Source: Stappia sp. WLB 29 (GTDB lineage Bacteria > Pseudomonadota > Alphaproteobacteria > Rhizobiales > Stappiaceae). Taken from it: 64,000 bases of DNA. Below are positions 41,250 through 54,921 of the stretch, piece by piece. Below the pieces are notes generated by a model that was not told the origin of the DNA, did not search any database, and saw only the letters and a program-made list of their open reading frames with translations. Position numbers and translations under genes: made by a program. The stretch is from the NCBI RefSeq assembly GCF_023507705.1, contig NZ_JALBGD010000003.1, positions 248,001 to 312,000 of the forward strand, read 5' to 3'. Numbering within the stretch: position 1 is the first letter of the stretch; each line of letters begins with the position of its first letter.

Positions 41250-42662
41250 TCAGCCGTGCGGCCACTCGCGGATGTCGACGAAATGGCCGGCGATCGCAGC
41301 GGCCGCCGCCATGGTCGGCGACACCAGATGGGTGCGGCCCTTGAAGCCCTGGCGGCCCTCGAAATTGCGGTTCGAGGTGGAGGCGCAGCGTTCGCCCGGC
41401 GACAGCTTGTCGGCGTTCATGGCAAGGCACATGGAGCAGCCCGGCTCGCGCCAGTCGAAACCGGCGTCGCGGAACACCTTGTCGAGGCCTTCGGCCTCGG
41501 CCTGGGCCTTCACCAGGCCCGAACCCGGCACCACCATGGCGTTGACGCTCTCGCGCACCTTGTGGCCGCGGATGACGGATGCTGCAGCGCGCAGATCCTC
41601 GATGCGGCCGTTGGTGCACGAGCCGATGAACACCCGGTCGACGGCGATGTCGGTGATCGGAGTGCCCGCGGTCAGGCCCATGTACTGCAGCGCGCGGCGC
41701 TTGGAGGCGCGGCGGTTCTCGTCCTCGATCTCCTCCGGATCCGGCACCCGGCCGGTCACGGAGATCACGTCCTCGGGACTGGAGCCCCAGGTGACGATCG
41801 GCGGCAGGTTGGCCGCATCGAGGCGGATCTCGGCGTCGAAATGGGCGCCTTCGTCGGTGAAGAGTGTCTGCCAGTAGGCGACGGCCTTGTCCCAGTCGGC
41901 GCCCTGCGGGGCCTTCGGGCGGCCCTTGATGTAGTCGAAGGTCTTCTCGTCCGCGGCGATCAGGCCGGCGCGGGCGCCGCCCTCGATCGACATGTTGCAA
42001 ACGGTCATGCGGCCTTCCATCGACAGCGCGCGGATCGCCTCGCCGGCATATTCGATGACATGGCCGGTGCCGCCGGCCGTTCCGATCTCGCCGATGATCG
42101 CCAGGATGATGTCCTTGGCGGTGACGCCGTCCGGCAGGATGCCGTCGACGGTCACCCGCATGTTCTTCGCCTTCTTCTGGATCAGCGTCTGGGTGGCGAG
42201 CACGTGCTCGACCTCCGAGGTGCCGATGCCATGGGCGAGCGCGCCGAAGGCGCCGTGGGTCGAGGTGTGGCTGTCGCCGCAGACGATGGTCATGCCGGGC
42301 AGGGTAAAGCCCTGCTCGGGGCCGACGATGTGGACGATGCCCTGGCGCAGGTCCGTCTCGCTGTAATACTCGACGCCGAACTCGGCGGCATTCTTCGCCA
42401 GCGTGTCGACCTGCAGGGCGGATTCGGGATCGTCGATGCCGTGGCTGCGGTCGGTGGTCGGCACGTTGTGGTCGACCACCGCCAGCGTGCGCTGCGGCTG
42501 GCGGACCTTGCGGCCGGTCATGCGCAGACCCTCGAAGGCCTGCGGGCTGGTCACCTCATGCACCAGATGGCGGTCGATATAGAGCAGGGCGGTGCCGTCC
42601 TCCTGGGTCTCGACGACGTGGTCGTCCCAGATCTTGTCGTAGAGCGTGCGCGGAGCGTTCAT
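41250..42662 (-). CDS. leuC: 3-Isopropylmalate dehydratase large subunit
   Basis: LeuC with LeuD isomerises 2- to 3-isopropylmalate in leucine synthesis, using a [4Fe-4S] cluster. The 470-residue protein has the expected length. [15 protein letters not shown] and VDHNVPTT lie near the N-terminus, [21 protein letters not shown] in the first third, and the cluster cysteines in [17 protein letters not shown] and GCSMCLAMN. The ATG at 42660-42662 opens [17 protein letters not shown]. leuD is not adjacent, a common arrangement in this group. A strong terminator follows. Confidence 0.97.
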
Positions 42663-43235: not shown

Positions 43236-44528
43236 TCAGCGCATCAGGCCCGGCAGCAGCAGCACCAGTGAGGGCACGGCGACGATCAGCGCCAGGCGGA
43301 CGATGTCGGCCAGGATGAACGGCACGATGCCGCGGAAGATCCGTTCCAGCGGGACGTCCGGCATCACCGTCTTCAACACGAAGACGTTGAGGCCGACGGG
43401 CGGGGTGATCAGGCTGATTTCGGTGACCACGACGACGACGATACCGAACCAGACCAGGTCGTAGCCAAGGGCCGCCATCATCGGTGCGAAGATCGGCACG
43501 GTGAGCAGCACCATGGAGAGGCTTTCCAGTACCATGCCGAGGCAGAGATAGACGCCGAGGACAGCGAGCAGGATCGCCCAGGGAGGCAGGTCGGAGGCGG
43601 CTGCCATGCTTGAAAGCGCCGCCGGCAGTCCGGCGATGTTGACGAAGTTGGAGAAGATCAGCGCGCCGATCAGCACCATGAACATCATCGTTGTGGTGGC
43701 GGCCGTATCGCTCAGCGTCTCCAGCAGGGTGGCGAGGGTCAGCCGGCGGCGGGCGAGCGCGATCAGGAACGCGCCGCTGGCGCCGATGCCGGCGGCTTCC
43801 GTTGCGGTGAAGACGCCGGCATAGATGCCGCCGATCACCAGCGCGAAAAGTGCGGTGATGCCGGCAACGCCGGCAAGCGCGCGGAAGCGCTCGCGGTAGG
43901 GCAGGCGCTCGGCCGGGGGCCCGGCTTCGGGGCGCCGCCAGCAGACCAGCCAGACGGCGGCCATGTAGCCGAGAACGCCGAGAATGCCGGGAATGATGCC
44001 GGCGATGAACAGCTTGGCGATGTCCTGCTGGGCGGTGACGCCGTAGAGCACCAGGATCACGGAGGGCGGGATCAGGATGCCGAGCGTGCCGCCGGCGGCG
44101 ATCACCCCGCTCGCCAGCCCGTCGTCGTACTTGTAGCGGCGCATCTGCGGCAGGGCGACCTTGCCCATGGTCGCGGCGGTGGCGAGCGAAGAGCCGCAGA
44201 CCGCGGAGAAGCCGCCGCAGGCAACGGCGGTCGCCATGGCAAGGCCGCCGCGGCGATGGCCGAGCCAGGCGTGGCAGGCGGCGTAGAGCTCGTCGGACAG
44301 CCCCGCCCGGGTGACGAGATTGCCCATCAGCACGAAGAGCGGCACCACCGAGAGCGGGTAGGAGAGGCCGGTGTCGAACGTGGTCTGTCCGACCATCGCC
44401 ATGGCCGGGGCGAAGCCGAGGATCATCGTCAGGCCGAGGCCGCCGACGGCGGCCATGGCGACGGCGATCGGCACGCCTGTGAACATCACGACGACGAGAA
44501 TGACGAGGCCGGGAAGCCAGGTTTCCAT
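43236..44528 (-). CDS. dctM: TRAP transporter large permease (DctM)
   Basis: DctM is the 12-helix sodium-coupled channel subunit of tripartite (TRAP) importers. The 430-residue protein has the usual length and motifs: TGVPIAVAMAAVGGLGLTMILG near the start, PLFVLMGNLVTRAGLSDELYAACHAWLGHRRGGLAMATAVACGGFSAVCGSSLATAATMGK, and IIPGILGVLGYM. The ATG at 44526-44528 precedes the first helix. It is last in the operon, 42 bases after dctQ. The imported compound is presumably the substrate of the upstream catabolic genes. Confidence 0.93.
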   Translation of the reverse strand: METWLPGLVILVVVMFTGVPIAVAMAAVGGLGLTMILGFAPAMAMVGQTTFDTGLSYPLSVVPLFVLMGNLVTRAGLSDELYAACHAWLGHRRGGLAMATAVACGGFSAVCGSSLATAATMGKVALPQMRRYKYDDGLASGVIAAGGTLGILIPPSVILVLYGVTAQQDIAKLFIAGIIPGILGVLGYMAAVWLVCWRRPEAGPPAERLPYRERFRALAGVAGITALFALVIGGIYAGVFTATEAAGIGASGAFLIALARRRLTLATLLETLSDTAATTTMMFMVLIGALIFSNFVNIAGLPAALSSMAAASDLPPWAILLAVLGVYLCLGMVLESLSMVLLTVPIFAPMMAALGYDLVWFGIVVVVVTEISLITPPVGLNVFVLKTVMPDVPLERIFRGIVPFILADIVRLALIVAVPSLVLLLPGLMR

Positions 44529-44570
44529 GGTCTTGCGAAGGTCCCTCGGGAGGTGGACGAGGCGGCCCGC

Positions 44571-45080
44571 TCAGGGCTGCCGGCGCAGGATGAGAACGGC
44601 GGCGACGAGCGCGGAGATCCCGGCCAGCACCGCCATCGCGACGGCGACGGGCCCGAGCGGAATGCCCAGATAGACCGTGGCATCGCCATAGGAGCTGTAG
44701 TCGCGGCCCAGAAGCGCGAGCCGCCAGGCGAACACCGCCAGCACGCTGGCGGTCACCGCGAGCGCTGCCCGGGCAAGGCCCTGTCGGAGACGGCCCGGAA
44801 GCCGGCCGGTGAGGAGGTCGACGGTGACATGCTCCCGCCGTGCCGTGACGATCGGCAGGCCGACGAAGACGACCAGCGCCAGCAGCACCTCGGTCAGCTC
44901 GAAGGCGCCGGGCAGCGGACTGTTGAACACGTAGCGGCCGATGACGTCGACGAAGGTCACCGCCATCATCACCAGCAGCAGCAGCGCGGCGACGAGCTGG
45001 AGGAGGCGCGTCGCCGCGGCGAGCGGCCGGAAGGGGCTTGCACCCCCGCCGGTCGCGCCGTCGCGGGGCTCGCCGGTCAT
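44571..45080 (-). CDS. dctQ: TRAP transporter small permease (DctQ)
   Basis: DctQ is the four-helix membrane subunit that joins DctM. The 169-residue protein has helices near RLLQLVAALLLLVMMAVTFVDVIGRYVF, ELTEVLLALVVFVGLPIVTA, and two more in the second half. The element GRYVFNSPLPGAFELTEVLLALVVF is typical of the family. The ATG at 45078-45080 overlaps the dctP stop by four bases, so the two are translationally coupled. Confidence 0.9.
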   Translation of the reverse strand: MTGEPRDGATGGGASPFRPLAAATRLLQLVAALLLLVMMAVTFVDVIGRYVFNSPLPGAFELTEVLLALVVFVGLPIVTARREHVTVDLLTGRLPGRLRQGLARAALAVTASVLAVFAWRLALLGRDYSSYGDATVYLGIPLGPVAVAMAVLAGISALVAAVLILRRQP

Positions 45081-46090
45081 TTCGCTGCGGCGATCTCGGC
45101 CTTGAGCATGTCGATGGCGGCCTGGCCATCGATGCCGGCGGCGGAGGCCGCATCGAGGAAGCCCTTCTCGACACCGGCGAGTTTCTCGGCGATGGCGGCG
45201 GTCATGGCCTCGTCGGCGGTGGTCTGGGCGACGCCCTTTTCCTCCATCACCTTGACGCCGGCCGCGTCGGCCGCATCCCAGGCCTGGCCAGCCATGCGGG
45301 CCATGGCCTCGCCCGACACGCTGTCGATGGCGGCCTTGTCCTCGTCCGAGAGCTTGTCCCAGGCGCCGCGGTTCATCACCACGAAGAACGAGGTGTTGTA
45401 GAGGCCGCCCGGCACCGAAACGCCGTTGCGGATCACCTCGTCGATGCGGAAGAAGGGCACGGACTCCGGTGGGAACAGGATGCCGTCGGCAACGCCGTTG
45501 GCGAGAATCTCGTAGACCTGCGGCGAAGGCGCCTGCACGCCGACCATGCCGAGCCGCGAGGCGATCTCGGCGACGATGCCGCCGCCGATGCGCATCTTCA
45601 GGCCTGCGAGATCGTCGACCGAGGCGACTTTCTTGGTGGTGGTGTAGATGCCGCCGGGACCATGGGTGAAGACGGTGAGCAGCTTGACGCCCTCGTGCTC
45701 GTCGGCCTTGGAAAGCATCGCCTCCTGCACCTTCCAGTAGGCGACGGACAGCGCCTCGGCGCTGTCGGACAGGAACGGTCCCTCGACCAGCGGCGTCAGC
45801 TTGAAGCGGCCCGGCGTGTAGCCGTGGACGCCGAAGCCGATATCGGCCGCGCCCGAGCGGATCAGGTCGAACTGCGCCGGCGGCTTGCCGATCGGCGCGG
45901 CCATGATCTCGACCGTGACGCGCCCGTCGGTCGCCTTGGCCACCTGCTCGCCCCAGGGGGTCAGGATGTCCTTGACGATGGGATGGGAGGGCGGCAGCCA
46001 GTTGGATACGCGCAAGGTGGTCTCGGCGGAGGCGGCGGTGGCGAGGCCAAGTGCCGCGACCGCGGTCAGCATCCCGATGAATTTCCGCAT
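45077..46090 (-). CDS. dctP: TRAP transporter solute-binding protein (DctP family)
   Basis: This periplasmic protein captures the substrate for the DctQM channel. A clear signal peptide (about 1-22, MRKFIGMLTAVAALGLATAA) is followed by ETTLRVSNWLPPSHPIVKDILTPWGEQV. The 337 residues fit the DctP family. The carboxylate-binding Arg of TRAP binding proteins should lie in LAGLKMRIGGGIVAEIASRLG. The ligand is thus probably an organic acid. The ATG at 46088-46090 starts 31 bases after the acyl-CoA ligase stop, so the transporter is likely part of the same transcript as the catabolic genes. Confidence 0.92.
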   Translation of the reverse strand: MRKFIGMLTAVAALGLATAASAETTLRVSNWLPPSHPIVKDILTPWGEQVAKATDGRVTVEIMAAPIGKPPAQFDLIRSGAADIGFGVHGYTPGRFKLTPLVEGPFLSDSAEALSVAYWKVQEAMLSKADEHEGVKLLTVFTHGPGGIYTTTKKVASVDDLAGLKMRIGGGIVAEIASRLGMVGVQAPSPQVYEILANGVADGILFPPESVPFFRIDEVIRNGVSVPGGLYNTSFFVVMNRGAWDKLSDEDKAAIDSVSGEAMARMAGQAWDAADAAGVKVMEEKGVAQTTADEAMTAAIAEKLAGVEKGFLDAASAAGIDGQAAIDMLKAEIAAAK

Positions 46091-46121
46091 TTCAGTCCCC
46101 TCTGTCTGGTTTTCGTTCCGG

Positions 46122-47660
46122 TCAGGCGCTTTGCTTCTTGCCGGACGCATTGAGCGCATCCTCGGCTATTTTCCTGACCCTTTCCAGCTGGATCTTGCCG
46201 AGCGCATTGCGCGGCAGCTCCTGCGTGAAGACGACGGATTTCGGGTGCTTGTAGCGCGCCAGACGTCCGTCGAACCCCGCCAGCACCGCCTCGGCGGTGA
46301 CCTCCCGGCCGGGTTCCGCCACCACGACCGCCACCGGGCTTTCGCCCCAGCGCGGATCGGAAATGCCGACGACAGCGGCCTCTCTCAAGCCGGCGATTTC
46401 GCCGAGCACCCGCTCCAGTTCGGCCGGATAGATGTTCTCGCCGCCGGAGATGATGACGTTCTTCAAGCGGTCCTTGAACCAGAAGACGCCGGCCTCGTCG
46501 CGAAGGGCGAGGTCGCCGGTGCGGAACCAGCCGTCGCGGAACGTGTCGGCGGTGGCCGTCTCGTTGTTCCAGTAGCCTTGCGTGATGTTGCCGCCCTTCA
46601 ACTCGATCTCGCCGATCTCGCCGGGACGGGCATCGCGCTCGCCGATACGGATGCGCGCCTTCGTGTGCAGGCCGGGCCGGCCGATGGCGCCGAATTCCGG
46701 GACGACGTTCTCGCGGCGCTGGTAGATCGCGACTGGGCCGGTCTCGGTCGCGCCGTAGACCTGCAGGACCGGCACGCCGCGGTCGACGAAGGCCCGCATC
46801 AAGGCATGCGGCACGTCGGAAGAGCCCGTCGCGACAAGGCGCAGGGAGGAAAGGTCCGCCGCCTCCCACTCGGGATGGGCGATCAGCGCGGCGAGCGTTG
46901 CCGGCACCAGCACGGTGAGGTCGGGGCGCTCGTCGCGGATTGCGGCGAGCGTCGTGCCCGGGTGGAAGCGGTCGTGCAGGATCACCGTCGCCCCGGCATA
47001 GAGCGCCGGCGTCGTCTGGATGTTGAGCCCGCCGACATGGAACATCGGCAGCACCGTCAGTACGGTGTCAGCGGCGGTGATCTCCTGCATGTGCAGGGCG
47101 TTCAGTGCGTTGGCCTCGACCGCGGCCTGGGTCAGGACGGCACCTTTCGGCCGGCCGGTCGTGCCGGACGTGTAGACGATGAGCAGGGGATCCTGCGTGC
47201 TGCCGTCGCCCTCGTCATGGCCGAGCGGCGCGTCATCCAGTGTCTGGCGGGCGAGACCGCCCGTTGCCGGATCGGCGATGAGCGTCTCTGGAAGCGGGGC
47301 AAGGGCCGCCATCGCGGCAAGGGTGGCCGCGAAATCGGGCTGGTGCACCAGGAGCCTTGCGCCGCTGTCGGCAAGCGCATGCGCAAGCTCGGGCGGGGCA
47401 AGGCGCCAGTTGAGCGGCACGACGATGGCGCCGAGCCGGGCGGCGGCGAAGGTCAGCAGCAGCTGGTCGGGCGAATTGGTGCCGAGATACGCGATCCGCT
47501 CGCCGCGCTTGATGCCGTGGCGGGCCGCAAGCGCGCCGGCCAGCCGGCCGATGCGGGCGGCGAGGGCGGCGTAGTCGATCCGCTCGTCGCCGAAGACCAG
47601 CGCCGTCTTCTCCGGGGTGAAGCGCGCATGCGCCTCGATCCAGTGGTCGATCGACGTCAC
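46122..47660 (-). CDS. Acyl-CoA ligase (AMP-forming)
   Basis: The 512-residue enzyme belongs to the fatty-acyl/aryl-CoA ligase group of the ANL superfamily. It activates a carboxylic acid with ATP and CoA. Motifs are IVYTSGTTGRPKGAVLTQ, VYGATETGPVAIYQ, GWFRTGDLALRDEAGVFWFKDRLKNVIISGGENIYP, and the catalytic lysine in PRNALGKIQLERVRKIA. The GTG at 47658-47660 overlaps the preceding flavoprotein gene stop by four bases. Its substrate may be the carboxylic acid taken up by the TRAP system or a ring-cleavage product; sequence alone does not tell. Medium-chain or 4-chlorobenzoate-type ligases are alternatives. Confidence 0.9.
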   Translation of the reverse strand: MTSIDHWIEAHARFTPEKTALVFGDERIDYAALAARIGRLAGALAARHGIKRGERIAYLGTNSPDQLLLTFAAARLGAIVVPLNWRLAPPELAHALADSGARLLVHQPDFAATLAAMAALAPLPETLIADPATGGLARQTLDDAPLGHDEGDGSTQDPLLIVYTSGTTGRPKGAVLTQAAVEANALNALHMQEITAADTVLTVLPMFHVGGLNIQTTPALYAGATVILHDRFHPGTTLAAIRDERPDLTVLVPATLAALIAHPEWEAADLSSLRLVATGSSDVPHALMRAFVDRGVPVLQVYGATETGPVAIYQRRENVVPEFGAIGRPGLHTKARIRIGERDARPGEIGEIELKGGNITQGYWNNETATADTFRDGWFRTGDLALRDEAGVFWFKDRLKNVIISGGENIYPAELERVLGEIAGLREAAVVGISDPRWGESPVAVVVAEPGREVTAEAVLAGFDGRLARYKHPKSVVFTQELPRNALGKIQLERVRKIAEDALNASGKKQSA

Positions 47661-48928
47661 TCGTCGGTTTCTCCCGGCAGGTAGAGGCTTTCCCGGCCGA
47701 TCCGGTCGAGGCAGATCTCGGCCGTCCAGGGCAGCATCAGGGCGCCGCAGCGGCTGTCGCGGAACAGGCGCTCCAGCGGCAGGGACTTCAGCATCGACTG
47801 GCCGCCGCAGGTGCGGATGGCGAGTTGGCAGATCTCGTTGGCGTTTTCCATCACCGTGTAGTGGGCGGCCCAGGCGCGCAGCATCTGCTCGCGCGAGGGA
47901 TCGGGACCGGCCTCGGTGATCGCCTGGAACCACAGGGCCTTGGTCTGCTCCAGCATCAGGTGCATCTGGGCGACGCCCATCTGCTTGGTGGGGAACATGC
48001 GCCGCTTGACCGGCGGCAGGCCGGGCCATTCGCCGCGCAGGTATTTCACGGTGAAGTCGAAGGCCGCCTGGGCGATGCCCATGTAGGTCGGCGACAGGGT
48101 CATGAACATGTGCGGCCAGCGGCTGGCGGCCTGGTAGTAGACGCCGCGCGGCATCAATGCCTCGTCCTCGGGAACGAAGACGTCTTTGAACAGCAGGGTG
48201 CGCGAGACGGTGCCACGCATGCCGAGCGGGTCCCAGGGACCGACCACCTCGACGCCCTCGGCCGTTGCCGGTACGGCGATATACATCGTGTCCCGGCGCG
48301 AGGGGCGCTCGCCCTCCTTCATCTCGCCGCAGAGGATACCGTAATAGTCGGCATGGCCGGACAGGGAGGCGAAGATCTTCTTGCCGTTGATGATCCAGCC
48401 GCCGTCGACCTTGCGGGCGGAGGTGGAAAAGGGCGCGGCTCCGGCCGCGGCGGCGCCGCCTTCCGAGAAGGGCTGGGAGTAGATAGCCCCGTCTTCCAGG
48501 ATGCGCCTATAGTGGACGGCACGGCGCTGGCGGTGCAACTCCCGCTCGCCGGCCTCGATTTCCAGATCGTCGGTCAGCGCGCCGGTCCACAGGCAGGAAC
48601 AGACATGCATGTTCCAGGTCAGGGCGGTCGCGCCGCAATAGCGGCCGATCTCGGCCGCCGTCATCATATAGGTGCGGAACGGCGCACCGTGGCCGCCGTC
48701 CTCCTTGGGCACGCAGATGCCGAGCAGACCGGCCTCGTGCATGTCGCGGTAGTTCTGCGTCGGGAACACCGCGTCGCGGTCGATGGCCTCGGCGCGCGGA
48801 GCGAAGCGGAACTTGGCCACCCGGCGGGCGAGGGCGGTCAGTTCCTCCTCCTGCTCGGTCAGGCGGAAGGCTTTGGGATCGAAGATCGGCTTGTCCATGT
48901 CGAGCGTCTCGAGATCGGCGACGGTCAT
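47657..48928 (-). CDS. Acyl-CoA-dehydrogenase-fold flavoprotein lacking the usual catalytic Glu
   Basis: The 423-residue protein has the three-domain acyl-CoA dehydrogenase fold: LGICVPKEDGGHG, YSQPFSEGGAAAAGAAPFSTSARKVDGGWIINGKKIF, DPLGMRGTVSRTLLFKDVFVPEDEAL, and RTCGGQSMLKSLPLERLFRDSR. Where dehydrogenases usually have the catalytic YEGT, this protein has LPWT (399-402), so the Glu is replaced by Pro400. Relatives without the base include flavin-dependent monooxygenases of this fold. A flavin reductase gene is divergently placed at 51 kb. Both facts suggest a two-component monooxygenase rather than a beta-oxidation enzyme. The ATG at 48926-48928 overlaps the hydrolase stop by four bases; ATG 48896-48898 is a less likely start. 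Confidence 0.85.
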   Translation of the reverse strand: MTVADLETLDMDKPIFDPKAFRLTEQEEELTALARRVAKFRFAPRAEAIDRDAVFPTQNYRDMHEAGLLGICVPKEDGGHGAPFRTYMMTAAEIGRYCGATALTWNMHVCSCLWTGALTDDLEIEAGERELHRQRRAVHYRRILEDGAIYSQPFSEGGAAAAGAAPFSTSARKVDGGWIINGKKIFASLSGHADYYGILCGEMKEGERPSRRDTMYIAVPATAEGVEVVGPWDPLGMRGTVSRTLLFKDVFVPEDEALMPRGVYYQAASRWPHMFMTLSPTYMGIAQAAFDFTVKYLRGEWPGLPPVKRRMFPTKQMGVAQMHLMLEQTKALWFQAITEAGPDPSREQMLRAWAAHYTVMENANEICQLAIRTCGGQSMLKSLPLERLFRDSRCGALMLPWTAEICLDRIGRESLYLPGETDE

Positions 48929-49728
48929 CGGCCTGCTCCCTCTTGCGGCGGTGTGGTCTCGGTCTGGTTCAGGAAGTCGCGGAGCGCGGCCTCGAAGGCC
49001 TGCGGGCATTCCAGCGGCGCCAGATGGCCGGTGCCGGGCAGCTCCACATAGCGGGCATCGCGCAGCTTCTCGCCCATCCGGCGCATGGTCGGGGCCGGCG
49101 CATTGCGGTCGACCTCGCCGGCGACAAGCAGCACCGGCACAGCGATGTCGGCCAGCGTGTCGCGGGCATCGAAGGTGGCAAGGCAGCGGATCGCCTCGCG
49201 ATAGGTCGCCTCCGGGACCCGGCTCATGGCGGCGGTGGCCACTGATACGGCAGCCGGGTCCGAGGCCGGTCCGACGAGATCCGGCACGAATTCGCGGGCA
49301 AGCTCGGGGATCGTGCGGCCGGCATCGAGCGGGGCCAGCCGCTCGGCGACGAAGCGCTTCTGGAACTCGCCGTCGCGGCTGCCGAAGGCGGCGGTGGTGG
49401 CCGACAGCACAAGGGTGCGCACGCGGCTCGGATGGCGGGCGACGAAGTCCTGCGCCAGCATGCCGCCGATGGAATGGCCGAGCAGGTCGACCTGGTCGAG
49501 TCCGAGCCGGTCGAGAAAGGCGAGCAGGGCCTCAGACAGGGCAGGGAAGGTCATCGGCGACAAGAGCGGAGTGCCGCCGTAGCCGGGAAGGTTCCAGCCG
49601 ATGGCGTCATGATCGCGGCCGAGCCCCCCGATCTGCGGCGCGAACATCTCCGCACCGGCGCCGATGCCGTGCAGCAGCACGACGGCGCGTTCGCCCCCGG
49701 TTCTGCGGATGTGGTCGGGCCGGCTCAT
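48925..49728 (-). CDS. Alpha/beta hydrolase (NicD-like position)
   Basis: The 267-residue alpha/beta hydrolase has an oxyanion region VVLLHGIGAGAEMF, nucleophile elbow GHSIGG (Ser86), likely acid Asp207 in GEVDRNAP and catalytic His235 in GTGHLAP. In nicotinate degradation an alpha/beta hydrolase (NicD) deformylates N-formylmaleamate right after NicX; other members of the same group hydrolyse enamides or enol-lactones in aromatic pathways. Its gene overlaps the NicX-like gene upstream and the flavoprotein gene downstream by four bases each. Deformylase or amidohydrolase action on the ring-cleavage product is inferred from this position only. Confidence 0.88.
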   Translation of the reverse strand: MSRPDHIRRTGGERAVVLLHGIGAGAEMFAPQIGGLGRDHDAIGWNLPGYGGTPLLSPMTFPALSEALLAFLDRLGLDQVDLLGHSIGGMLAQDFVARHPSRVRTLVLSATTAAFGSRDGEFQKRFVAERLAPLDAGRTIPELAREFVPDLVGPASDPAAVSVATAAMSRVPEATYREAIRCLATFDARDTLADIAVPVLLVAGEVDRNAPAPTMRRMGEKLRDARYVELPGTGHLAPLECPQAFEAALRDFLNQTETTPPQEGAGR

Positions 49729-50771
49729 CGCAGCGCCTCGATCAGCTCACCGTCCACCACCACCGGCTCGCCGTCGAGCGCGATGGTGCAGCCGCGCACC
49801 GGGATGTCGAAATGGCCCTTGGTGAAGCGGCCGGCGAACTCGTTGGCCCCGGTCGAGAAGAGGAAATTTCCCGAATAGGCGCGCACTTCCGTTCCGTTGG
49901 TCTCGCGCTGGTCGTACATGGTCAGCGCCTCGTAGCGCGCCGCGGCATTCATGCCGAAGCCGACATGGGCGACGGCATAGGCCTCCTTGTCGCCCCAGGC
50001 GGCGAGATAGCGGCGGGTCAGCTCGGCATCGGTGCCCTCGCCCTCGATCTCCGTCACATAGTCGTCGACGATGGTCAGGCGCACCGGGCGCTCGAGATAG
50101 CGCTTGAAGGTCAGGTTGATGTCGCCGGCATCCAGCACGAGGGTGCCGTTGACGCTGTGGGCGGCGGGGAAGCTTACGACGAGGCCGGCGGGCCAGTGGG
50201 CGACGGAGCCCGGCCGGTCGCACCAGCCCCACACGCCGACGGTCGAGGCGCCTTTCATGGCGACCTTGAGATCCGTGCCGGCGGCGGAGGTGACTGTCAT
50301 CTCGGTCGCCGCACGAATGCGGGAGACGGCCTCGCGCACCCGGTCCTTGTCGCGCGGCTGCGGCAGCAGGCGCTCGAGCGCGTCAGGATGTTCGTTTGAA
50401 ATCATCAACATGCGGGCGCCACCGGCGATGATGCGCGGCAGCTCCGGCGCATGCAGCAGGCCCTCGACCGTCAGGTCGACGACGAGGCCGCTGGCGGCGA
50501 GCGCGGCAATCGCCGCGTCCTGTCCGGAGAGCGCAGCCGAGGCACCCGTCGAGCGCACCTGCACCGGCGCATCCTGCGGCGGTGTCGGCACGACCACGTG
50601 GAAAGCCTTCGCGCCGAGGCGAAGCAGGGCGAGTTCCGCGATGTGGACGTTGAGGGCGCGCGACTGGGTTTCGGAGAGGATCGCGACACTCTCCCCCGGG
50701 GTCACCTTGCAGAGGGTGAAGACGGCCGCGAAGGCGTCGATCCACTTTCCCTCGATCCTGTCGGCGAGCAT
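49725..50771 (-). CDS. NicX-like 2,5-dihydroxypyridine 5,6-dioxygenase family protein
   Basis: NicX is a mononuclear iron extradiol dioxygenase of an unusual (M29-peptidase-related) fold that opens 2,5-dihydroxypyridine to N-formylmaleamate. This 348-residue protein matches its length. It keeps a His in YAVAHVGFGMN (His269) and the HxD pair in KGHFDIPVRG (His320, Asp322), which correspond well in spacing to the iron ligands reported for NicX (His265, His318, Asp320). Other conserved stretches are SVNGTLVLDAGDINL and SGNFLFSTGANEFAG. The ATG at 50769-50771 was preferred over an upstream ATG because GAGGAGGATCTG lies just before it. It is first in the operon. An aminopeptidase-like alternative is less likely, because the HFD pair fits NicX. 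Confidence 0.85.
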   Translation of the reverse strand: MLADRIEGKWIDAFAAVFTLCKVTPGESVAILSETQSRALNVHIAELALLRLGAKAFHVVVPTPPQDAPVQVRSTGASAALSGQDAAIAALAASGLVVDLTVEGLLHAPELPRIIAGGARMLMISNEHPDALERLLPQPRDKDRVREAVSRIRAATEMTVTSAAGTDLKVAMKGASTVGVWGWCDRPGSVAHWPAGLVVSFPAAHSVNGTLVLDAGDINLTFKRYLERPVRLTIVDDYVTEIEGEGTDAELTRRYLAAWGDKEAYAVAHVGFGMNAAARYEALTMYDQRETNGTEVRAYSGNFLFSTGANEFAGRFTKGHFDIPVRGCTIALDGEPVVVDGELIEALR

Positions 50772-50910
50772 CAGATCCTCCTCCCGATCCGCTCCGGCTA
50801 ATCGCTTCGCGCCGACGTCCGGCACGGCCCGATCCGTGCCGTCCGACGTTTTGTTGCGTCGGGCGGTCAATTTTCGCAGCAAGCGAAAAGAACTTGGAGG
50901 AGCGTAGCAA

Positions 50911-50928
50911 TTTCGTTATTGTATGAAA
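50911..50928. promoter_or_regulatory. Candidate MarR operator between the nicX-like and flavin reductase genes
   Basis: TTTCGTTATTGTATGAAA has inverted arms TTTCGT/ATGAAA with one mismatch. It lies in the only AT-rich part of the 234-bp divergent gap. On the minus strand it contains TACAAT, a good -10 match pointing toward the nicX-like operon. A repressor bound here would block that promoter. MarR binding is inferred from the adjacent regulator gene. Confidence 0.45.
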
Positions 50929-51005
50929 AGGAATATTTTTAGGCATGAACTTGTTGCCGGCGCGGCTCGCCGGCATTCCGCAAGCCGAAGGCACGAGGAC
51001 AGGCC

Positions 51006-51509
51006 ATGATGAGCGATCACCGCAGCTTCCGCAGCGCCCTCGGGCGGTTCGTCACCGGCGTCACCATCGTCACCACGCTGGACGAGGCCGGCCGGCCGGT
51101 CGGATTGACGGCCAATTCCTTCAACTCGGTCTCGCTCGATCCGCCGATGGTGCTGTGGAGCCTTGCCCGAAAATCGCAGAATCTCGCCGTTTTCGAGCGA
51201 TCCCGGCACTATGCGGTCAACATTCTTGCCTCCGATCAGCGGGCGCTGTCCGACCGGTTCGCGCGGCCGGTGGAGGACCGTTTCGCCGGAGTTTCCTGGC
51301 AGCCGGGGCAGTGCGGCGTGCCGGTGCTGGCGGGGGTAACCGCCGTGTTCGAGTGCCTCAACGAGACCCGGGTGGAAGGGGGCGACCACCTGGTTTTCCT
51401 CGGGCGGGTCGAGGCGTTCGACCATGCGGACCGCGAGCCGCTGCTCTATCATTCGGGGCGCTACGCAACCCCGAGCTATGCCGGCCCGTCGGCCGCCCTG
51501 CCCGAATGA
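51006..51509 (+). CDS. Flavin reductase (HpaC-like)
   Basis: The 167-residue protein is an NAD(P)H:flavin oxidoreductase domain of the HpaC/NtaB family, the small component of two-component flavin monooxygenases. Typical stretches are RFVTGVTIVTTLDEAGRPVGLTANSFNSVSLDPPMVLWSLARKSQNL, YAVNILASDQ, and GGDHLVFLGRVEAFDHADREPLLYHSGRY. Two adjacent ATGs (51006, 51009) follow AGGACAGGCC. It is divergent from the nicX-like operon and precedes the MarR gene by ten bases. The most plausible partner is the acyl-CoA-dehydrogenase-fold protein at 47.7-48.9 kb. Confidence 0.93.
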   Translation: MMSDHRSFRSALGRFVTGVTIVTTLDEAGRPVGLTANSFNSVSLDPPMVLWSLARKSQNLAVFERSRHYAVNILASDQRALSDRFARPVEDRFAGVSWQPGQCGVPVLAGVTAVFECLNETRVEGGDHLVFLGRVEAFDHADREPLLYHSGRYATPSYAGPSAALPE

Positions 51510-51519
51510 GAGGCGTGCA

Positions 51520-52059
51520 ATGACCGATCTTGCGGCACCTGCCCGCCCGTCCCCCGGCAGCCCGAGCGAAGGCGCTTCCGGCGCCGCAGCCGGGCGCTTC
51601 GTCGACGGCTATCTGCTCTACCTGCTGGCGCGGGCCTCGAGCGTTGCCAGCGCCGAATTCCACGAGCAGGTGCGGGCCCGCGGCGTGCCGGTGGCGGTGT
51701 GGCGCATCCTCGCCTCGCTGAAGGGGACGGGCGAGGGGCTGACCGTCGGCGAGCTGGCGAAGAGCTGCCTTGCCAACCAGCCGGCGATCTCCAAGACCGT
51801 CGACAAGCTGGTCGCCAAGGGGCTGGTCGAACGGCAGGCGGATGGGCAAGACCGCCGCCGCGTCTGGGTGCGGCTGACGCCGGCGGGCGAGGCGCATGTC
51901 GACGAACTTATCCTCGAGGCGCAGGCGCACCAGGCACGGCTGGTCGAGGCGATCGGCGAGGGGGAAACCGAGACGCTGCGCCGGGCCCTGCTGCGGTTGA
52001 TCGAACGGGCGGGATCTGGCGCTCCTTCCGTGGATTTTGATGAGTTTTCCGACAAATAA
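51520..52059 (+). CDS. MarR-family transcriptional regulator
   Basis: The 179-residue protein has a winged helix: VWRILASLKGTGEGLTVGELAKSCLANQPAISKTVDKLVAKGLVERQADGQDRRRVWVRLTPAG. The DxRR wing (DGQDRRR) and flanking dimer helices are complete. MarR regulators commonly sense aromatic ligands; NicR of Pseudomonas putida is a MarR protein that controls nicotinate genes. The ATG at 51520 is ten bases after the flavin reductase stop, so both are probably one transcript. It likely controls itself and the divergent catabolic operon. A candidate operator lies at 50911-50928. Confidence 0.92.
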   Translation: MTDLAAPARPSPGSPSEGASGAAAGRFVDGYLLYLLARASSVASAEFHEQVRARGVPVAVWRILASLKGTGEGLTVGELAKSCLANQPAISKTVDKLVAKGLVERQADGQDRRRVWVRLTPAGEAHVDELILEAQAHQARLVEAIGEGETETLRRALLRLIERAGSGAPSVDFDEFSDK

Positions 52060-53076: not shown

Positions 53077-53695
53077 AGCCGACCGGGCGGCCGCCCGCAT
53101 CCAGCGCCATCGACTTGACGATACGGGCATCGGCCTCCTGGCACAGGAGCACGAAGTCGCGGATGGTGCAGAAGTGGATGTTCGGCGTGTCGTACCAGGA
53201 ATAGGGCAGGTAGTCGGTGACCGGCATGCGGCCGCCGAACAGAAGCTGCAGGCGGTTGCGCCAGAAGCCGAAATTCGGGAAGGACACGATGACGTTGGAG
53301 CCGATGCGCAGCAGCTCCTCCAGCACCCGGCGCGGCGCGTAGGTCGCCTGCAGGGTCTGGCTGAGGATGACGAAATCGAAGGCGTTGTCCGGATAGTCCG
53401 ACAGGTCGCGGTCGGCGTCGCCCTGGACGACGGACAGGCCGCGGGCGACGCAGGCGTTGACACCGGCCTGCGACAGTTCCAACCCGCGCCCGTCCACCTG
53501 CTTCTCGCGGATCAGCAGGTCGAGCAGCTCGCCCTCGCCGCAGCCGATGTCGAGAACCCGCGAGCCGGGCGCGACGAGATCGGCGACGAGACGGTGGTCG
53601 CCGCGCGCACTGCCACCGGCCGTCTGCGGCGCGGTCGTCGGCACGGGCGGCGCGTCCACCGCGGCCTCGGGTGTGGTGATGGTCGTCACGCTCAT
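53009..53695 (-). CDS. metW: Methionine biosynthesis protein MetW
   Basis: MetW is a methyltransferase-fold protein that works with MetX in O-acylhomoserine synthesis. The 228-residue protein has [113 protein letters not shown], all typical MetW signatures. The first 30 residues are Thr/Ala/Pro-rich and unconserved. The ATG at 53693-53695 overlaps the metX stop by four bases. The 3' end overlaps a convergent methyltransferase gene by 68 bases. Confidence 0.95.
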
Positions 53696-54921
53696 GCGGC
53701 ACCTCCTGCCGGCGGGGCGATCCCGCGGGCGTGGGCCGCGCCGGTCAGGAAACCGAGCACGGTGCGGAACATTTCCGGCTCGTCGAGCAGGAAGGCATCG
53801 TGGCCGCGGTCGCTCTCCACCTCGACGAAGGAGACGTTGGCGGCGGCCGCGTTCAGCGCCTTGACCACGGCCTTGCTCTCGGCGGTGGGGAACAGCCAGT
53901 CGGAGGTGAAGGACATGACGCAGAACCGGGTCGGCGAATGCAGGAAGGCGCGCGGCAGCGAGCCGCCGAAATCGGCGGCCAGGTCGAAATAGTCCATCGC
54001 CCGGGTGACATAGAGATAGGAGTTGGGGTCGAACCGGTCGACGAAGGTCATGCCCTGGTGGCGCAGGTAGCTCTCGATCTGGAAATCGGCGTCGAAGCCG
54101 AAGGTGATCGCCTCGCGGTCCTGCAGGTTGCGGCCGAACTTGCGGTGCAGCGCCGGGTCGGAGAGATAGGTGATGTGGGCGGCCATGCGCGCCACTGCGA
54201 GCCCCTTGGACGGGCGCACGCCACGCTCGAAATAGCGCCCGCCGCACCAGTTGGGATCGGCCATCACCGCCTGGCGGCCGACCTCGTGGAAGGCGATGTT
54301 CTGCGAGGAATGGCGGGCGGCGGCGGCGATGGGCACGGCGGAGAACACCCGCTCGGGATAGCTTACCGCCCATTGCAGCACCTGCATGCCGCCCATGGAG
54401 CCGCCGACCACGGAAAACAGCGTCTCGATGCCGAGATGGTCGAGCAGCACCGCCTGGGCGCGGACCATGTCGCGGATCGTCACCAGCGGCAGGTCGAGGC
54501 CCCAGCGCCGGCCGGTCGCCGGGTTGGTGGAGGCAGGTCCCGTGGTGCCGAGGCAGCCGCCGAGCACATTGGCGCAGATGACGAAGAAGCGGTCGGTGTC
54601 GACCGGCTTGCCCGGGCCGACGAGCAGCGACCACCAGCCGGGCTTGCCGGTCAGCGGATTGGGCGAGGCGACATACTGGTCGCCGGTCAAGGCGTGGCAG
54701 ACGAGGATCGCGTTGCTGCGGTCCGCGTTCAGCGTGCCATAGGTCTCGTAGGCGATCTGCCAGGGATCGAGCACGGTGCCGGAATCGAGCCGCAACGCCT
54801 TGTCGCCGCCGAACCTCTCGACGCGGCTCGACGGATTGTCGGCCTCGCTGGCCGGCGCTGCCCGCAGCTCCGGTGGGCTCTGATCGGGCGGGGTCTCTTC
54901 GGCGGTCGTGTCCTTGCTCAT
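53692..54921 (-). CDS. metX: Homoserine O-acetyltransferase
   Basis: MetX transfers an acyl group (acetyl, in some members succinyl) to homoserine, the first committed step to methionine. The 409-residue alpha/beta-hydrolase-fold protein has [28 protein letters not shown], the nucleophile in [16 protein letters not shown], the acid in [10 protein letters not shown] and the His in [15 protein letters not shown]. The N-terminal 40 residues are unconserved. The ATG at 54919-54921 lies close behind AGGAGGATGTCCGGC, a strong ribosome-binding site. It forms a coupled pair with metW. No SAM riboswitch was recognised in the 350-bp upstream gap. Confidence 0.95.

Follow-up and report, generated by a model that had tools for sequence, protein, structure and literature searches.

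A conserved catabolic gene module of Stappia with a NicX-like protein: a candidate route for opening anthranilate-type rings

Which acid is broken down by the products of the nine genes that occupy positions 43236–52059 of a 64,000-nucleotide stretch of DNA from Stappia sp. WLB 29 (hereafter the window; contig C23 of genome G000 in our genome set), and by what chemistry? The initial annotation had seen here a nine-gene catabolic locus resembling part of the nicotinate pathway. The arrangement that it described stands: all nine reading frames are intact, the starts of acad, nicX, dctP and marR being chosen among several possible codons; four minus-strand genes, encoding a NicX-like protein (nicX), an alpha/beta hydrolase (abh), a flavoprotein with the acyl-CoA dehydrogenase (ACAD) fold (acad) and an AMP-forming acyl/aryl-CoA ligase, follow one another with successive 4-bp overlaps and are separated by 31 bases from the genes of a TRAP transporter, while a flavin reductase gene and marR diverge from nicX. 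The resemblance to nicotinate degradation is for the most part not borne out. The locus is likely, and with good confidence, a conserved aromatic-acid catabolic module with a NicX-family ring-opening enzyme, and as to its substrate we lean tentatively towards a benzoate-type acid, most likely anthranilate or a ring-substituted anthranilate, whose ring it would open.

The nicX product (49725–50771, minus strand, 348 aa) is the only one of the nine for which the Pfam and NCBIfam collections provide no family: no model of either matched it at E 0.001 and, with Pfam searched at E 10, only a weak AMP-binding match appeared. For all the other genes these collections agree with the families originally assigned, and the NicX-like assignment is borne out by the match to the sequence of solved NicX, 7cn3 (phmmer, 1.4e-58), to which the NicX-like proteins are 37–40% identical. 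The AlphaFold2 model of the protein (predicted local distance difference test, pLDDT, 92; predicted template modelling score, pTM, 0.90) fits 7cn3 with a template modelling (TM) score of 0.91, so that the predicted structure has the NicX fold; the next fold matches are the M29 peptidases AmpT and PepS, the best of which (AmpT) attains a TM of 0.62. A scan of one genome per species, covering 84,980 species, yielded 86 NicX-like relatives, the closest being that of Stappia indica (98%), and 80 of these were kept as loci. When residues were mapped by hand through the phmmer alignment to 7cn3 and the NicX paper (PMC7910607), the iron ligands were found to be kept in the clade (H265, H318 and D320 in 87/87 rows, S302 in 86/87), the rows including the window protein and near-copies and not being independent, with the short or split matches L076, L077, L078 and L080 dropped. 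Plasmid records label relatives of this protein peptidase M29, and this label, together with the rank of AmpT and PepS among the fold matches, is what could be said for an M29-type aminopeptidase in place of an oxygenase. Such an identity is hardly credible in view of the gap between the two TM scores, the conserved NicX iron ligands and an operon made of oxidative enzymes, and it was rejected on the grounds of fold and iron ligands. To judge from sequence and model, the protein likely belongs to the NicX family and carries the iron-binding residues of a ring-cleaving dioxygenase of the non-heme iron type, as had been proposed at the outset. As a separate observation, three NicX-like matches in one genus (G226:C10, G206:C14 and G100:C1) are each reported with one in-frame TGA.

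Does membership of this family entail a pyridine substrate? According to PMC7910607, Glu177 of NicX bonds both N1, the pyridine nitrogen, and O1 of 2,5-dihydroxypyridine, and His189 also holds the substrate. His105, His189 and Arg293 are kept in 87/87 rows and Glu177 in none, its place being taken by V (52 rows, including the window protein), I (11), G (11), S (5), N (5) or T (3). Glu177 is retained in L084 and L085, the NicX proteins of annotated nic clusters, and in a tree in which these two are the only reference NicX rows, the 81 clade rows split from them with full support and by a long branch.

A pathway for a pyridine or other N-heterocycle carboxylate, in which a dihydroxypyridine is cleaved, would be in keeping with the identity and TM score to NicX, with the conservation of the iron ligands, His189 and His105, and with the presence of a MarR regulator; we nevertheless consider it improbable, given the loss of Glu177 in every row, an operon without a pyridine hydroxylase and the content of the 80 loci, many of which are cut by contig ends, where NicE and NicF were found in 0/80 and NicC as a single 31% match in L029. 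In a set of 397 genomes from the order, nicX is matched at 1e-60 in 45, by members of this clade (at least 50% identity) in 38 and by other NicX-like proteins (38–41%) in 7; NicE was found in 0/38 of the clade genomes, a weak test, as only 1/7 of the genomes with the more distant homologues has NicE. A role on 2,5-dihydroxypyridine is thus unlikely, because of the loss of Glu177 and of the missing NicE, NicF and all but one weak NicC match, and membership of the nicotinate pathway was ruled out by the same loss and the missing partner genes. Compared with the nic cluster of Pseudomonas putida KT2440, the source of 7cn3, the module shares the NicX fold, the iron ligands, H105, H189 and R293, an alpha/beta hydrolase gene within the cluster and a MarR regulator, whereas it has no Glu177, NicE, NicF or clear NicC, has a different hydrolase, and adds a CoA ligase, an ACAD-fold flavoprotein, a flavin reductase and a TRAP transporter.

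What these additional enzymes may do is suggested by their families. The flavoprotein (47657–48928, minus strand) has ACAD domains in Pfam and the ACAD fold in its model (pLDDT 85), and its best sequence matches in the PDB are 5gj7 and 5z8t, titled putative acyl-CoA dehydrogenase and flavin-containing monooxygenase; true acyl-CoA dehydrogenases fit the fold equally well. At the column that we take, from a hand alignment with the MCAD motif, to correspond to Glu376 of MCAD, Pro is found in 67/67 rows. The flavin reductase (51006–51509, plus strand; Pfam Flavin_Reduct 1.2e-43) falls below the cut-off of the NCBIfam models for reductase components of the HpaC, HsaB and FerA types, and a homologue accompanies nicX in 21 of the 46 well-covered loci described below. 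An oxygenase of the ACAD fold whose flavin reductase is encoded by a gene of its own is the arrangement of two-component group D flavin monooxygenases, and the flavoprotein is probably the oxygenase component of such a system, with the reductase as its probable partner, in line with the two-component monooxygenase envisaged initially. The hydrolase (48925–49728, minus strand) matches Abhydrolase_1 (1.1e-25 in Pfam) and has the triad Ser86, Asp207 and His235, each conserved in 93% or more of the aligned rows; its best NCBIfam models are PcaDC and PcaD, all those shown being below cut-off. To NicD, the alpha/beta hydrolase named at the outset, it shows no clear relationship (31% over 96 residues, E 2e-5; 25% over 270, E 3e-4), and it is a candidate thioesterase or C–C/formyl hydrolase acting on the ring-opened product. 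The ligase (46122–47660, minus strand, GTG start) matches AMP-binding in Pfam (2.3e-79) and, as best PDB match, feruloyl-CoA synthetase 8wev (2.1e-114).

That these genes belong together is indicated by their recurrence. In the 46 loci of the set with 6.5 kb or more of sequence to either side of nicX, homologues were found of the hydrolase in 39, of the flavoprotein in 39 and, at 40% identity or more, of the ligase in 36 (a count that may take in unrelated ligases), so that the co-conservation anticipated by the initial annotation is confirmed; MarR is found in 28, DctP in 14 and DctM in 13, and 42 of the loci have one or more of the three enzymes hydrolase, flavoprotein and ligase. Host titles include Alpha-, Beta- and Gammaproteobacteria (the last as metagenome bins only) and actinobacteria of the Acidimicrobiia type, in whose loci the gene set is partial or absent. 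Because it recurs far outside the genus, the arrangement is not due to chance.

The proposal that the acid is anthranilate, which is the product of kynureninase in tryptophan breakdown, draws, besides the loss of Glu177, on the distribution of KynU. A kynureninase over the TIGR01814 cut-off is present in 32/38 clade genomes of the order set and 57/359 of the others (odds ratio 28, p 1e-17, here as below with p values that overstate independence, the genomes being related). In the family of Stappia itself, every one of the 20 genomes included has KynU over the cut-off, which makes the family uninformative; with that family removed the figures are 24/30 and 45/347. Within a single genus with 146 genomes, which we take to be probably Bradyrhizobium, KynU is found in 83/90 genomes with the clade and 27/56 without it (p 4e-9), while hmgA, an unrelated aromatic-catabolism gene used as control, is nearly universal (88/90 and 54/56). 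Physical linkage occurs in distant lineages: in the Cupriavidus loci L069, L070 and L078, kynA, kynU and kynB lie within ~5 kb of nicX, the KynU of L069 being over the TIGR01814 cut-off, and in 3/90 clade genomes of the 146-genome genus KynU, next to kynA and kynB, is found at a distance of 4.2–4.4 kb from nicX.

In Pseudorhodoplanes L026 and in genome G013 the module locus contains a tryptophan 2,3-dioxygenase gene and a gene of the class-V aminotransferase family; the two class-V genes (L109:14186-15340, plus strand, and near 2.6 kb of L026) are 57% alike, and no NCBIfam model matched this gene at 1e-10. The protein may be a divergent kynureninase, since standard kynureninases have the same fold. 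The gene is present in 4/6 of the clade genomes without KynU (G013, G017, G098 and G131; 57–59% identity to the G013 gene, 57–100% over the four genomes), G047 and G236 having neither. The 39 genomes tested for it include 33 with KynU or without the clade, namely 12 with both clade and KynU (out of 32 such genomes), 7 with distant NicX and 14 without; apart from the four, the other 35 gave a single match, of 28%, in G248.

A substantial body of observations weighs against the link with anthranilate. Across the order hmgA is itself enriched in clade genomes (31/38 and 91/359 of the others, odds ratio 13), so that the KynU signal is to some extent a general one. Close linkage to kyn genes was seen in no more than 3/90 genomes of the 146-genome genus, and within the order set in G387 (KynU) and G013 (tryptophan dioxygenase) alone; the kyn genes of the window genome are on another contig, C35, and ~1.2 Mb separate KynU from nicX in G146, a relative whose genome is a single contig. 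Four well-covered loci (L064, L074, L025 and L055) have none of hydrolase, flavoprotein and ligase, and a side branch, consisting of Aminobacter, Ensifer and Sinorhizobium plasmids together with G280, G336 and G181, is without the ligase and has, in all but G181, an adjoining glutamine-synthetase-like gene and APC permease, some of them named by reading. Furthermore, we know of no enzyme of the NicX-like clade that has been assayed.

The same enzyme logic could operate on another benzoate-type acid, such as salicylate, an aminosalicylate, a gentisate-like compound or a marine phenolic, with kynureninase a mere companion of aromatic-degrading genomes. The enrichment of hmgA and the presence of a kyn gene in only 4/80 loci (L026, L069, L070 and L078) speak for this view, as do the aminobenzoyl-CoA monooxygenase that Stappia already possesses (see below) and a cupin gene which adjoins the Aminobacter module in L081, is related to gentisate and 5-aminosalicylate 1,2-dioxygenases, though below both cut-offs, and points to benzoate-type rings. 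It is confronted, on the other hand, with the persistence of the KynU association when hmgA is held constant: KynU is found in 26/31 clade genomes and 37/91 others among those with hmgA (p 2.6e-5), and in 6/7 and 20/268 among those without (p 2.7e-6). Conversely, hmgA shows no association with the clade among KynU-bearing genomes (26/32 and 37/57, p 0.15) but is associated with it among those without KynU (5/6 and 54/302, p 0.001). The association also holds inside the genus where hmgA is near universal, four of the six clade genomes lacking KynU have the KynU-like gene in its stead, and lineages far from one another have kyn genes next to the module. On balance this other-acid explanation appears rather doubtful.

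If anthranilate is the substrate, is the module needed for it? Much of the evidence here is also unfavorable. The 2-aminobenzoyl-CoA monooxygenase/reductase model NF006101 is over its cut-off in 61/80 KynU-bearing genomes (28/32 with and 33/48 without the module) and in 8/8 further module genomes; with partial matches at E 1e-100 included, the figure for KynU-bearing genomes rises to 74/80. The argument that the module fills a gap in KynU genomes devoid of another exit for anthranilate accordingly failed. In the window genome the gene lies outside the nine-gene locus (C3:27012-29288, L115), with a benzoate-CoA-ligase-family gene, over cut-off, a few kb away and branched-chain-type ABC genes, identified by reading, nearby. 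Because of these monooxygenase and ligase genes Stappia likely holds an anthranilate route already and the module fills no obvious gap; since this route is likely present and the kyn genes are remote, the module may act on a hydroxyanthranilate, on some other acid of the benzoate type, or on anthranilate as part of a second route. As to other exits, antA is over cut-off in 0/80 KynU-bearing genomes, with one weaker match in G230, and HAAO in 17/80, the window genome included. The monooxygenase scores at least 1240 bits in 9/32 KynU-bearing genomes with the clade and 30/48 without (p 0.003), and between 1101 and 1142 bits in 19/32 and 3/48, respectively; these classes, chosen after the scores had been seen, suggest a partial replacement.

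Alternatively, the module could be a lower branch that receives 5-hydroxyanthraniloyl-CoA, formed by this monooxygenase as product or by-product, instead of an independent route for anthranilate. The frequent co-occurrence of the two would fit, as would the eight genomes of a single genus in which the monooxygenase gene is 7.7–7.9 kb away from nicX, the homologous stretches present also in L028 and L029, and the formation of 5-hydroxyanthraniloyl-CoA by the monooxygenase under limiting NADH, which PMC3534580 reports, citing Langkau 1990. The monooxygenase is present, on the other hand, in 33 KynU-bearing genomes without the module and was not found in those module loci of Stappia and Cupriavidus that were fetched, and the module has a ligase and an oxygenase of its own, all of which makes this dependence very unlikely.

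Returning to an independent route for anthranilate, the following sequence of events can be envisaged. The acid would be imported by the TRAP transporter or made by KynABU, and the ligase, placed last in the initial scheme, would more likely act first, forming the CoA ester. The ACAD-fold oxygenase, supplied with reduced flavin by the reductase, would hydroxylate the ester para to the amino group, the hydrolase would release 5-hydroxyanthranilate, and the NicX-like enzyme would cleave the ring next to the new hydroxyl; in an alternative order the hydrolase would take formate off the ring-opened product, leading towards maleylacetate. MarR would repress both transcripts until an inducer binds. 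The salicylyl-CoA/gentisyl-CoA logic likewise proceeds from a ligase through a CoA-ester hydroxylase and a thioesterase to ring cleavage, its hydroxylase and dioxygenase being of other families.

Four aerobic routes for anthranilate, through catechol, through gentisate via 5-hydroxyanthranilate, through 3-hydroxyanthranilate and through 2-aminobenzoyl-CoA, are described in the available portion of PMC4539516, and none of them, as presented there, uses a NicX-type enzyme. With the last of these, the pathway of Azoarcus evansii, the module would share a CoA ligase acting on an aromatic acid, the attack by a flavoprotein and genomes that often hold kynureninase; that pathway differs in its fused monooxygenase/reductase (NF006101), which is not among the nine genes of the locus, and, within what PMC4539516 offers, in having no ring-cleaving dioxygenase. 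With the gentisate route of Nocardia opaca (Cain 1968, as cited in the same portion of PMC4539516) it would share 5-hydroxyanthranilate, which there goes on to gentisate and here is proposed to be cleaved directly. For Arthrobacter, PMC3534580 reports ligases that form anthranilate-CoA, along with a CoA ester interpreted as hydroxyanthraniloyl-CoA. Neither among the open-licence papers listed nor in the text consulted of PMC3534580, PMC4539516, PMC7118221, PMC7910607, PMC11630574 and PMC11676955 was there an account of this gene set or of anthranilate as substrate of a NicX-type enzyme.

An additional aerobic pathway for anthranilate, combining CoA-dependent 5-hydroxylation by an ACAD-fold two-component oxygenase with direct NicX-family cleavage of a carbocyclic aminophenol ring, and paired with the tryptophan-to-kynurenine genes or a divergent kynureninase, is in this complete form somewhat unlikely. 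Were it correct, a family that records label peptidase M29 would be the ring-opening enzyme of tryptophan/anthranilate breakdown in Stappia, its rhizobial relatives and Cupriavidus, the NicX fold would reach from pyridines to benzene rings, and a candidate for a divergent kynureninase would have been named.

The remaining genes of the locus concern transport and regulation. The TRAP importer recognized initially is upheld by the Pfam matches of its solute-binding protein DctP (45077–46090; 9.5e-34), small permease DctQ (44571–45080; 5e-27) and large permease DctM (43236–44528; 1.1e-94), all on the minus strand, dctP and dctQ overlapping by 4 bp and dctM following after 42 bases. TRAP genes occur mostly in Stappia and near relatives, and also in G013, G098, G036 and G037; in several other alphaproteobacterial loci they are replaced by NitT/TauT-like ABC genes, named by reading, with one binding protein checked in Pfam. 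The marR gene (51520–52059, plus strand; Pfam MarR_2 1.5e-15) begins 10 bases after the flavin reductase gene, and the 234 bases between the latter and nicX (50772–51005) contain five short inverted repeats, making this divergent region a likely operator; a promoter scan of it gave no sigma-70-like match. The locus is bounded by genes at 41250–42662 and 53692–54921 that, by reading alone, resemble leuC and metX (homoserine acetyltransferase). In the Aminobacter side branch the hydrolase has an extra N-terminal Polyketide_cyc2 domain. Finally, an octopine-dehydrogenase-domain protein (Pfam) and a 3-hydroxybutyryl-CoA-dehydrogenase-like protein (NF006125 over cut-off) recur near the ligase and nicX in alphaproteobacterial loci (L105:6440-8526, with homologues in 17 and 27 fetched loci, some from the same genome).

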